Positions 40,987 to 44,636 of a stretch of DNA of 44,636 bases are shown here, one piece after another. Each line of letters opens with the position of its first letter. Positions within the stretch are counted from its first letter, which is position 1. Source of the DNA: Ignavibacteriales bacterium (GTDB lineage Bacteria > Bacteroidota > Ignavibacteria > T3Sed10-11). Below the pieces are notes generated by a model. The model saw nothing but the letters and a program-made list of their open reading frames with translations, was not told the DNA's origin and did no database searches. Location: positions 1 through 44,636 of the forward strand of contig PWYR01000096.1 in assembly GCA_003567775.1 (NCBI GenBank), given 5' to 3'. The translations under genes and the position numbers were made by a program.

Positions 40987-41970
40987 ATGCAATACAAAGA
41001 TTATTATAAAATACTCGGCGTCGGTAGAAACGCTTCACAGGATGAGATAAAAAAAGCATACAGAAAACTTGCAGTTAAGTATCACCCGGATAAAACGGAA
41101 GGCGATAAAAAGGCAGAAAACAAATTCAAAGAAATATCCGAAGCGTATGAAGTTTTAAAAGATCCCGCAAAACGAAAAAAATACGATCGCTTCGGTCAGA
41201 ACTGGAAACAGTACCAGGAAGCGGGCGCGGGCGCCGGCGGGTTTGACTTCTCAGATTTCATGAAACAGGGTGGATCCGGCCGGGGCAGAGGACGGGATCG
41301 GCAGGAACAATCCTCCTCGTATGGAGATACATTCAGCTTTGAAGAGGTTTTCACCGGCGGAAGGGGACGAAGCGGTTTCAGCGATTTCTTCGAGACATTA
41401 TTCGGCGAGGAATTTCGCAGCGCACGGGCGCGGCCGCGCGGCGGAAGCACGGCGTCGATGCGAGGGCAGGATGTGACTGCGGAGACAACGCTTACACTCG
41501 AAGAAGCATATTACGGAACGGCGCGTATTATTCAGATGGACGGAAAAAAAGTCCGGGTGAATATTAAACCGGGTATCCGGGATAACCAAACGCTTCGCCT
41601 TCCCGGGAAAGGAGTGCCCGGCGCCGGCGGCGGGCAGGCAGGCGACCTTTACCTTAAAATTAACATTACCCAACACCCTGTATATAAACGCGACGGGGAC
41701 AATCTTTATATGGATGTCAAGGTCGATCTTTATACCGCGGTAACAGGCGGGAAAACCGAAGTCGAAACGCTGAAGGGAAAAGTGAAAGTCGATATACCCA
41801 AAAAGACACAGTCGGGTAAAGTTTTACGTTTACCGAAACTCGGTATGCCGGTTCATAACAAGCCGGGTGAGTACGGCGATCTGTATGTAAAAGTTCATAT
41901 TCAAATCCCGGATGATTTGACCGAAGAAGATGTAAAGAAATTCGAGCATTTGAAGAAATCGAAAACATAG
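40987..41970 (+). CDS. DnaJ C-terminal domain co-chaperone (CbpA-like)
   Basis: [35 protein letters not shown]-domain with HPD; G/F-rich region; C-terminal DnaJ domain without zinc finger. Confidence 0.95.
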
Positions 41971-42176: not shown

Positions 42177-42206
42177 TTGCATTATTAATAAAATTTCTTA
42201 TATTTG
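42177..42206 (+). promoter_or_regulatory. Bacteroidota-type promoter
   Basis: TTGC(42177-42180), 18 nt, TATATTTG(42199-42206), an exact match to TAnnTTTG. Confidence 0.5.
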
Positions 42207-42945
42207 ATTATTCGTTATTTTATTTGTTTTTTTAAAAATTACGTAAGTAGAGCGTTACGTTACACACAGTCATTTCAAATTGTCTCAAGAGCGGTATATG
42301 GTTTTTTATTAAGAATATCACTTGACCTTCCCATGCCGGATGCACCTGTTGATAAATGGGTAAGAAGGAACCGGGTTTGCCCCCTGAGCGGGCAAGCTGT
42401 CTGATCAAGCGAGACAAGAGGTTGGTAGCCGGAGAACGGTCTCGCAAGTACTATTTGTATTACATGTAGCAGCTTTTCAGTCCCTCCAATTGAAATGCTG
42501 CTAATCCTAATCCGCCCGTTGGTTCCTGTGACTAACGAGGCGGAGCTGTGCCCTACGAAGTCGGTTTTGCCGTAGTAGGGCTGTGCAACGAGGGAGCAAT
42601 TGGCATTTATTGAAATTGTAAGCGCCTGTCAACACTCATCACATTTCTATCCCCGATATGATGTCATGTGGGTTGGTCCCGACGTTGAGAAAATTTCTCA
42701 TTGGACGACCCCGGGCGATCATTATTAGCTCGTATACTCTTCCTCGATGCATACCCGTTGTATTTCAAAAAAAGAATTTTTATTAAAACTTCATACATTG
42801 AATCTATTCACAATTCCTCCGTCCGCTGTACAAGCGGCTCATATAATCCCTTACGCTGACAGGCGCTGATATGTGTGTCGTCGGGACGGAGGATTTGTTT
42901 AACTAAAATTATCTTTTGTTGTTGGAATTATTGAAGGGATTAGTC
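42207..42945 (+). ncRNA. Candidate long structured leader / non-coding RNA upstream of polysaccharide export gene
   Basis: ~730 nt with no convincing CDS and a run of strong hairpins: 42467-42503 (12 bp, one mismatch), 42511-42544 (13 bp, one bulge), 42550-42581, 42377-42395, plus long-range complementarity. Confidence 0.5.
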
Positions 42946-44636
42946 ATGAAGCGAACAGTAATTTTTATTGTTATCTCCCTCATTTTCGGTATGGCTGCTC
43001 TTTCGTCCCAATCTACAAGTGAAAGTGATCGCCGCAGGGCAGAGGAGCAGGCGCGGCGCATGTCGCCCGATCAGATACAGGAGCGGCTTCGCCAGGCGGG
43101 AATATCCCGTGAAGAAGCCGTTGAACGCGCCCGCAGAGAGGGGGTAAGTCTTGAAGCAATCCTCTTCCCCGACAGAGATGAGAGAGTAGATGATACCGAC
43201 CGGTTGAGATTAGAACAACGCTTGCCGGTCACATCGCGAACCCGCCTCGATAGCATTCAAGCCGAACGCCTGCGGCAGATCGGCATCACCCGTGAACTCG
43301 CACTACGAAGAGCACAAAGCGAAGGTGAGACGCTTACTGAATTTCTTTTCCCCGAGGAGCCGGATGAGGATGTTGAGGAGGAGATGAATTACCGGATTCA
43401 ACTGTATGGACTTACCCGCGAAGAAGCCCAGATGAATGCCCACATGCTTGGTATGACCCTCGAGGAATTTGTATTCCCGGATCTCCCCGATGTCAGCTTA
43501 CTGCGCGAGGATGAGTTGGTGGATATAACAATCCCCGAACGGGATTTCAGACCTGAGGAATTTGCCGACCGTGAAAATGCAATGGATCTCGATGCATTCG
43601 GCTATAACATATTCGATTTTCCCGCCACGACGTTTGAACCGGTTCTCAGCATATCACCTCCGGCGAATTACCGGGTCGGTCCCGGCGATGAACTGGTTAT
43701 CTCCGTCTGGGGGCAGGTGCAGCTCTATCACTCATTGACCGTAAACAGGGAGGGATTCATTATCATTCCCGACCTCGGGCAGGTGATGGTAAACGGATTG
43801 ACGCTCGAGCAGATACGCGAGCGATTGTTACAGCGAATGTCGCAGGTATATTCCAGTCTCGGCGGCGGCGCAAGCGCCAATTCATTTCTCGACGTCTCGG
43901 TCGGGAAACTCCGCACTATACAGGTGTTTGTGCTCGGCGATGTCAGGCGTCCCGGAGGGTATACGCTCTCGTCCATGAGCACCGCATTTAAAGCCCTCTA
44001 TTACTCAGGCGGACCGACGTTAAAAGGATCGTTGCGGGACATTCGTGTTATGCGCGGAAACAGGGAAGCTGCCCGGTTGGATTTTTACAGCTATGCGCTC
44101 AAAGGCGATCAATCGGGCGACGTCCGGCTCGAGGACGGCGACATAGTATTCGTGCCGCCTGCCGGGAAACGCGCTGCCCTGGCGGGACGCGTTGTCCGGC
44201 CTGCGGTTTATGAATTGAAAGAAGACGAGCGGCTCGGTGAGTTAATTAGCATGGCGGGAGGACTGCGCTTCGATGCACGATTCGACCGCATTCACATCGA
44301 GCGTATCGTCCCGTTCTCCATGCATCGGGAATTCAAACACAATATTCTCGATATCGATGTGATGTTCGAAAACGACTACGACCTGCTCGATAGCGATCAT
44401 CCCGTCGAAGCAGGCGATGTCGTTATGGTATCGCCGCGTCCGCAGCGCCTTGAAAACAGAGTTCGTGTTGTGGGAAACGTTAATAACCCGGGAATTTATG
44501 AACTGTCGCCCGGTATGACCGTACGGGATCTTGTCCTTCGAGCAGACGGACTGCTTGACGATACTTACATTAACAGAGCTACTATTGTCCGCACGCAGGA
44601 AGAATCCATGAAAAAAGAAGTGGTCCCGGTAGACCT
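42946..44636 (+). CDS. Polysaccharide export protein, Wza/SLBB-type (3' end outside window)
   Basis: Own translation MKRTVIFIVISLIFGMAALSSQS...NYRVGPGDELVISVWGQVQLYHSLTVNREGFIIIPDLGQVMVNGLTLEQIRERL...VFVLGDVRRPGGYTLSSMST...VRVVGNVNNPGIYELSPGMTVRDLV; open to window end. Confidence 0.9.
   Translation, partial: MKRTVIFIVISLIFGMAALSSQSTSESDRRRAEEQARRMSPDQIQERLRQAGISREEAVERARREGVSLEAILFPDRDERVDDTDRLRLEQRLPVTSRTRLDSIQAERLRQIGITRELALRRAQSEGETLTEFLFPEEPDEDVEEEMNYRIQLYGLTREEAQMNAHMLGMTLEEFVFPDLPDVSLLREDELVDITIPERDFRPEEFADRENAMDLDAFGYNIFDFPATTFEPVLSISPPANYRVGPGDELVISVWGQVQLYHSLTVNREGFIIIPDLGQVMVNGLTLEQIRERLLQRMSQVYSSLGGGASANSFLDVSVGKLRTIQVFVLGDVRRPGGYTLSSMSTAFKALYYSGGPTLKGSLRDIRVMRGNREAARLDFYSYALKGDQSGDVRLEDGDIVFVPPAGKRAALAGRVVRPAVYELKEDERLGELISMAGGLRFDARFDRIHIERIVPFSMHREFKHNILDIDVMFENDYDLLDSDHPVEAGDVVMVSPRPQRLENRVRVVGNVNNPGIYELSPGMTVRDLVLRADGLLDDTYINRATIVRTQEESMKKEVVPVD

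Follow-up and report, generated by a model that had tools for sequence, protein, structure and literature searches.

A candidate ops-like recruitment site for UpxY-type NusG paralogues in the long leader of an Ignavibacteriales exopolysaccharide operon

Introduction

What is the role of a long, apparently untranslated stretch that directly precedes a polysaccharide export gene in a member of the Ignavibacteriales? The DNA analysed here (44,636 nt, referred to as the window) makes up contig C149 in an assembly of 2.28 Mb that is 68% complete (genome G000). It ends in a Wza-like gene for polysaccharide export, which has Poly_export and SLBB domains (42946–44636, forward strand; Pfam PF02563, PF10531 and PF22461) that runs off the contig end, and its upstream neighbour on the same strand is a DnaJ-like gene (40987–41970). 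An initial annotation of the intervening DNA had described an unusually hairpin-dense gap, had suggested a riboswitch, a processive antitermination leader or an independent large RNA, and had recognised no known class.

Specialised NusG paralogues that act on the leaders of long operons are already known, amongst them RfaH, LoaP and UpxY (PMC7593976, PMC7819879, PMC12691694). Roughly half of Bacteroidota are reported to have NusG paralogues, and in B. fragilis each UpxY protein is described as an activator of its own operon (PMC7593976). The 5′ leader is where UpxY acts (PMC7819879), and a passage of PMC12691694 that cites Saba et al., 2024, has it contacting upstream duplex DNA.

Results

A conserved leader with unevenly distributed structure

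The region between the TAnnTTTG element and the ATG, given as about 730 nt in the initial annotation, indeed contains no credible coding sequence, the longest open reading frames in 42207–42945 measuring 66–71 aa. It is directly preceded by a promoter-like block of the Bacteroidota type TTG/TAnnTTTG (42177–42206, forward strand; TTG-N19-TATATTTG), in which TATATTTG occupies 42199–42206 and the TTG lies 19 nt upstream at 42177–42179. Judging from this block, 42207–42945 would be transcribed as an untranslated leader of about 740 nt on the forward strand. A search for homologues in related genomes recovered the orthologous leader in a congener, G002 (contig C75), where its position matches as far as the ATG, again downstream of DnaJ, with 80% identity in the promoter block and 74% in the remainder. 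Elsewhere in the window's own genome, a stretch on contig C50 resembling the promoter block was set aside, as it is AT-rich and precedes a nucleotidyltransferase gene.

All the hairpins listed in the initial annotation are present, with coordinates that are exact or off by about one base, and the leader as a whole is more stable than shuffled sequence (−220.7 kcal/mol, z −4.25, 20 shuffles). The reported hairpin density is thus real, but it is uneven, because piecewise folding against 200 shuffles gave no excess over the first 194 nt (42207–42400, z +0.73) and placed it within 42401–42905, with z −1.92 for 42401–42465, −5.08 for 42466–42765 and −4.71 for 42805–42905. The TTGCCC/GGGCAA hairpin, although present in the sequence, sits in a part that is not conserved in G002. 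Two features had been overlooked, namely a long hairpin (42816–42824 with 42884–42892) and a 10-nt complementarity between 42622–42631 and 42857–42866. Amongst the individual forward-strand elements, the hairpin GCGAGA/TCTCGC (42409–42445) is conserved in one congener, the hairpin TAGCAGC…GCTGCTA (42467–42503) keeps much of its stem in one congener with a different spacing of the 5′ arm, and the hairpin GCCCTAC/GTAGGGC (42550–42581), an insertion separating the 24-nt motif from helix P2 (both described below), is optional, being absent in the congeners G003, G004 and G005.

Comparison of the leader with the Rfam covariance models returned no known riboswitch or other family at the gathering score, and at E ≤ 5 chance-level matches only. 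A search for simple intrinsic terminators in the leader found none, with 1.2 expected by chance; the termination that an antitermination complex would counter here could be Rho-dependent.

A 24-nt motif recurs across the genus and the phylum

The part of the leader with the strongest structural excess contains a 24-nt sequence, TGTGACTAACGAGGCGGAGCTGTG (42527–42550, forward strand), which on the basis of its conservation, the phylum scans described below and its register with the ops element is a candidate recruitment motif for a NusG paralogue of the UpxY type. It occurs once per genome in the genus (six genomes, G000 to G005), and in 6/6 it opens a genus-specific structured element, module A, which is likewise found once in each genome by covariance model R1 and inspection (53–80 bits in five genomes; 24.8 bits in G001, supported by inspection). 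Matches of R1 in other families (L039 and L041) were judged to be due to chance, one being 80% GC and the other lying inside a coding region, and a hit on G005:C46 was not counted, since it matches over 34 nt only, carries a two-base insertion and lies near a glycosidase-like gene. The gene following module A could be read in five of the genus genomes and was a polysaccharide export or chain-length gene in all five: it is of the export type in G000 and, by alignment of the first codons, in G002, of the Wzz type in G004 and G005, and has a Wzz/kinase-like start in G003. In G001 the following gene starts like Wzz genes and is cut by the contig end. An AT-rich conserved block, roughly AAAATTTTCnGCAAGACCCC…GTAACGATATATATAT, lies upstream of module A at four loci of other species (L019, L049, L050 and L017) and is absent from the window; it may be the promoter region of those species.

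A genus pattern, GTGACYRACGNGGCGGAGCYRTG, was built from the six genus motifs and scanned over one genome per species for 85,462 species. The scan returned 16 stretches, all from Bacteroidota, against about 0.5 chance matches estimated by base counting. Five stretches belong to the genus and stem from sediment MAGs whose titles read Ignavibacteriales or Bacteroidetes; the others stem from MAGs of Bacteroidales and further Bacteroidetes, and several motif copies were seen on some of the contigs. Many of the sites precede genes that by eye resemble nucleotide-sugar dehydrogenases, epimerases and transporters, and at two loci the site lies just behind a NusG-like gene, of which the one scanned passes the NCBIfam UpxY model. 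On rumen Bacteroidales contigs (ONJF01000029.1, loci L055, L067 and L069; CACXXW010000030.1, loci L059 and L062) there are three or more motif copies with near-identical upstream arms, for example CAGCCCCTTGTCACCACGGAAT, ahead of gene sets some of which are not obviously concerned with polysaccharides, as if the leaders had been copied in front of several gene sets.

We drew 398 genomes evenly over the phylum and searched them with a strict pattern, allowing up to two mismatches, using the reversed pattern as control. With the strict pattern, 23/398 genomes yielded 26 sites; its reversal yielded 0. A relaxed pattern, drawn from the strict and the paralogue-proximal sites, found 54 sites in 41/398 genomes, again against 0. 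In the consensus over 62 sites, TGTGACTGACGTGGCGRAGCTGTG, a hairpin arm runs into a GGN6TGTG pause sequence, so that the motif falls into a 5′ half, TGTGACTGACG, and a 3′ half, GGCGRAGCTGTG; in the window the corresponding parts are TGTGACTAACG and the pause-type core GGCGGAGCTGTG (42539–42550). Several positions are conserved beyond what the searches imposed: the leading T, present in 61/62 sites, is forced by neither pattern, and the C at position 9 (52/62) and the G at position 12 (59/62) are both free in the relaxed one. The T at position 22 is found in 60/62 sites. The sites are almost always intergenic (60/62), and the next open reading frame lies on the same strand in 53/54 cases.

The motif combines a pause-type core with an upstream hairpin

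The pause frame G-11 G-10 … G-2 Y-1 G+1 is present in the window as G42539, G42540, G42548, T42549 and G42550, which predicts a paused 3′ end at T42549. Folding places a hairpin, P1, just before it (42511–42544, forward strand; 42512–42523 paired with 42531–42543, A42538 bulged, loop UCCUGUG). This is the hairpin given in the initial annotation as TCCGCC-CGTT-GGT/ACT-AACG-a-GGCGGA. The 3′ arm of P1 is the 5′ half of the motif, and the last base of the upper P1 stem, G42537, lies 12 nt upstream of the predicted 3′ end; a hairpin 11–12 nt upstream of the 3′ end is known to prolong pausing (PMC12288461). Across the genus, 89% of P1 cells are paired. Pairing upstream of the motif is also seen at other Bacteroidota sites: outside the genus, the 40 nt upstream pair with the motif's 5′ half beyond shuffled expectation (mean z −1.43, compared with +0.11 to −0.25 for controls displaced 60–200 nt upstream). 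As z ≤ −2 is reached at 16/56 of these sites, we regard the hairpin as a frequent rather than a universal part of the element.

The non-template strand of the core might in addition form a mini-hairpin closed by C42541:G42545. We keep this as a possibility only, because a DNA energy model predicts no such hairpin, giving 0 kcal/mol for GGCGRAGCTGTG and GGCGGAGCTGTG and −0.9 kcal/mol for ops. The sequence d(GCGAAGC) forms an unusually stable mini-hairpin, and the energy model may not hold structures of this type.

The motif is associated with NusG paralogues

In the strict set, 22/22 other motif genomes encode a NusG paralogue besides the housekeeping NusG, and in 8/22 a site lies about 1.1 kb or less from the paralogue on the same strand. 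The 24 genomes added by the relaxed pattern all carry a paralogue (24/24), and 11 have an adjacent same-strand site; since the relaxed pattern was made after seeing paralogue-proximal sites, its adjacency figures are partly circular, while the strict ones are not. Taken together, paralogues occur in 46/46 motif genomes compared with 23/46 motif-negative ones (Fisher p 6e-9), and in 19/46 genomes no more than about 1.1 kb separates a site from the NGN domain of a paralogue, the two always sharing a strand. Conversely, 6/10 paralogue loci chosen without regard to the motif have a related same-strand site near the gene, three UpxY genes of the window's genus being among these six, and among 36 top-scoring, mostly housekeeping NusG loci we found 0 sites. 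One genus paralogue and a JAHJTN paralogue pass the NCBIfam UpxY cut-off.

Within the genus, UpxY was found in G002 and G003. The chief difficulty is that the element is present in G000 (68% complete), G001, G004 and G005 (94% complete), yet no UpxY gene was found in any of the four; accessory islands missing from MAGs may be a reason. Three UpxY-type genes of the genus (L096, L097 and L098) each have a motif copy upstream of the NGN domain, which suggests self-control. Some genomes of the phylum sample (G258, G156, G216 and G252) carry three sites, and this suggests a multi-operon regulon of one UpxY-type protein.

Two genus-specific RNA modules follow the motif

Module A (42582–42753, forward strand), seen in the six genus genomes, consists of a long-range helix P2 (42582–42593 with 42742–42753) that encloses a hairpin P3 (42597–42601 with 42614–42618), the conserved word GYGCCTGTCA (42622–42631) and variable hairpins. 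Further downstream lies module B (42812–42900, forward strand), a second genus-specific element described by covariance model R2, in which a long stem (42816–42824 with 42884–42892) and inner helices present a conserved loop with TGACAGGCGC (42857–42866). R2 matches module B in G000, G005 and, twice, in G002 (80–96 bits). Module B also occurs without module A nearby (L015:1636–1720 and L016:5245–5333); one of these two extra copies precedes a bacterial sugar-transferase gene and the other separates a Wzc-type ATPase gene from an SLBB gene. A pattern search allowing 3 mismatches did not find module B in G001, G003 or G004.

Base-pair support was counted on hand-trimmed sequences, six for A and four for B, with variable hairpin interiors removed. 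In module A, 87% of cells are paired with 3 double-change pairs, a number reached by 62/500 shuffles; in module B, 96% are paired, also with 3 double-change pairs, reached by 21/500 shuffles. The long stem of B is paired in 100% of cells and shows the compensatory changes CG/UA and UA/CG. The pair counts thus lend both modules modest support, which for A is weak against shuffles.

The word in module A, GCGCCTGTCA, and TGACAGGCGC in module B are perfectly complementary over 10 nt (11 nt in the window's genome), with a predicted duplex energy of −22.7 kcal/mol. From the sequences, a long-range loop–loop contact between A and B is possibly formed, and we find the idea attractive. The word is nearly invariant and therefore offers no covariation test of the pairing. 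G005 has its two modules on separate contigs. G003 carries AGTGCCTGTCA in module A; if the pairing is true, a species with this variant would have TGACAGGCACT in module B.

Discussion

We consider it likely that 42207–42945 is the leader of an exopolysaccharide operon governed by processive antitermination and contains an ops-like UpxY recruitment site. The motif is conserved and oriented, shares an arm with a hairpin, and is linked statistically and physically to UpxY-type paralogues and polysaccharide operons; pausing, binding and read-through at the motif would follow by analogy with RfaH/ops and Bacteroides UpxY, and by the same analogy the motif is probably where a specialised NusG-type factor (UpxY) joins RNA polymerase. 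RNA polymerase would start near 42210, reach the motif about 320 nt later and pause with the RNA 3′ end near T42549, at a GG-N6-TGTG pause backed by nascent P1 12 nt upstream. A UpxY-family NusG paralogue would recognise the paused complex via the exposed non-template GGCGGAGCTGTG and the upstream TGTGACTAACG, displace NusG and accompany the polymerase along the operon, where it would suppress both pauses and termination. The UpxY partner would act in trans; the UpxY-type genes of G002 and G003 lie elsewhere, three of them behind site copies of their own. Modules A (P2/P3) and B would, we infer, be termination, pausing or anchoring features that the complex must pass or use.

Among the readings offered initially, that of an antitermination leader for a polysaccharide operon is well supported by the membership of the core hairpin in a phylum-wide element and by the tie of this element to UpxY-type paralogues and polysaccharide operons, but a riboswitch and an independent large RNA gain no positive support, because there is no Rfam match and the genus leader precedes polysaccharide genes wherever the following gene is readable. 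A riboswitch that senses a metabolite or signal and controls the export operon, with P2 enclosing a junction in which GAGGGA and AGYGCCUGUCA stay unpaired and conserved, seems to us very unlikely. Variable-length stems do surround conserved junction bases in module A of six species, and the 3′ arm of P2 is often followed by U-rich sequence (for example TGCATACCTTTTTT in G004). Against this stand the Rfam result, with nothing but chance-level matches even at E ≤ 5, the weak covariation support for P2, in which 4/11 pairs never vary and 1 shows a double change, the occurrence of one copy per genome at EPS loci in only one genus of the 99 relatives searched, and the motif opening module A, which is phylum-wide and tied to NusG paralogues.

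The manner of recognition may be questioned as well. The NusG paralogue could bind the motif directly as an RNA hairpin rather than read it as an ops-like non-template DNA signal, much as LoaP binds an RNA hairpin in its own leader (PMC12691694), and both the upstream arm that at many sites pairs with the 5′ half of the motif and the paired P1 cells of the genus fit this. We think it unlikely, given that the 3′ half GGCGRAGCTGTG, which lies outside the upper stem, is conserved at least as well and keeps the register of ops and of the pause consensus, and that the hairpin is found at some sites and not at others. We would give similarly little credence as to the riboswitch to the proposal that A and B are sites for a double-stranded-DNA regulator, with GCGCCTGTCA in A and its inverted copy in B and with incidental RNA folding. 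The near-invariance of the 10-nt word, its opposite orientation in the two modules and the presence of module B alone at two other EPS-gene boundaries would suit such a regulator, but a DNA site needs neither the fully paired and compensated long stem of B nor the folding excess of A (z −5.1) and B (z −4.7).

The class to which the preferred reading, a UpxY-dependent antitermination leader, assigns the locus, that of ops/RfaH and UpxY, went unrecognised at first and is one that a specialist would know. With the Bacteroides capsule operons the locus shares the phylum, the polysaccharide operons, the location in a 5′ leader and paralogues passing the NCBIfam UpxY model. UpxY is said, in the 2024 work of Saba et al., to read exposed non-template DNA and upstream duplex, helped by nascent RNA hairpins, a mode that would fit the two-part motif and P1. 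The window differs in that wza/wzc-like genes, not upxY, come after its leader, which is about 740 nt long and contains two extra conserved RNA modules, and one consensus recurs over many families here, in contrast to the own-operon activation described for B. fragilis (PMC7593976).

In the RfaH system of Proteobacteria, with its JUMPstart leaders, the C3:G8 non-template hairpin and the U11 pause of ops, GGCGGTAGCGTG, are established (PMC5995543). Both systems concern leaders of polysaccharide operons, and GGCGGTAGCGTG and GGCGRAGCTGTG share a GG…TG frame in the same 12-nt register (PMC5995543) as well as a possible C3–G hairpin with a small purine-rich loop. The flipped-out T6 of GGCGGTAGCGTG is, however, absent from the window core GGCGGAGCTGTG, the candidate loop has 3 nt (GRA) where that of ops has 4 nt (GGTA), with T in 0/62 sites at positions 15–17, which are partly set by the search patterns, and the Bacteroidota element has in TGTGACTGACG a further conserved half, to which an arm upstream often pairs. 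LoaP and the Bacillus dfn operon offer a further parallel in a NusG paralogue, a long leader, an RNA hairpin and a biosynthetic operon (PMC12691694), but LoaP binds a UNCG-type hairpin without a discernible pause (PMC12691694), whereas here the core is pause-type, the P1 loop is UCCUGUG and the genus paralogue scores 63 bits against a LoaP cut-off of 125.

We found no phylum-level target consensus for UpxY-type paralogues in the literature covered, to which the likeliest source, Saba et al., 2024, does not belong. On our reading the locus is of a known kind, to which it adds a phylum-wide consensus that we did not find described in that literature and two genus-specific RNA modules, with functions that we infer. 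More tentatively, and with rather less confidence than would make it our expectation, we propose that the shared two-part code (TGTGACTGACG and GGCGRAGCTGTG) might be an undescribed, Bacteroidota-wide counterpart of ops for UpxY, to which the genus might add an A–B loop–loop pairing that controls or anchors the complex. A searchable consensus would allow the candidate regulon of a UpxY protein to be listed from sequence alone and would make RfaH-like recruitment testable outside Proteobacteria, and the genus-specific modules would lend themselves to the question of how nascent RNA structure contributes to a complex of this kind.
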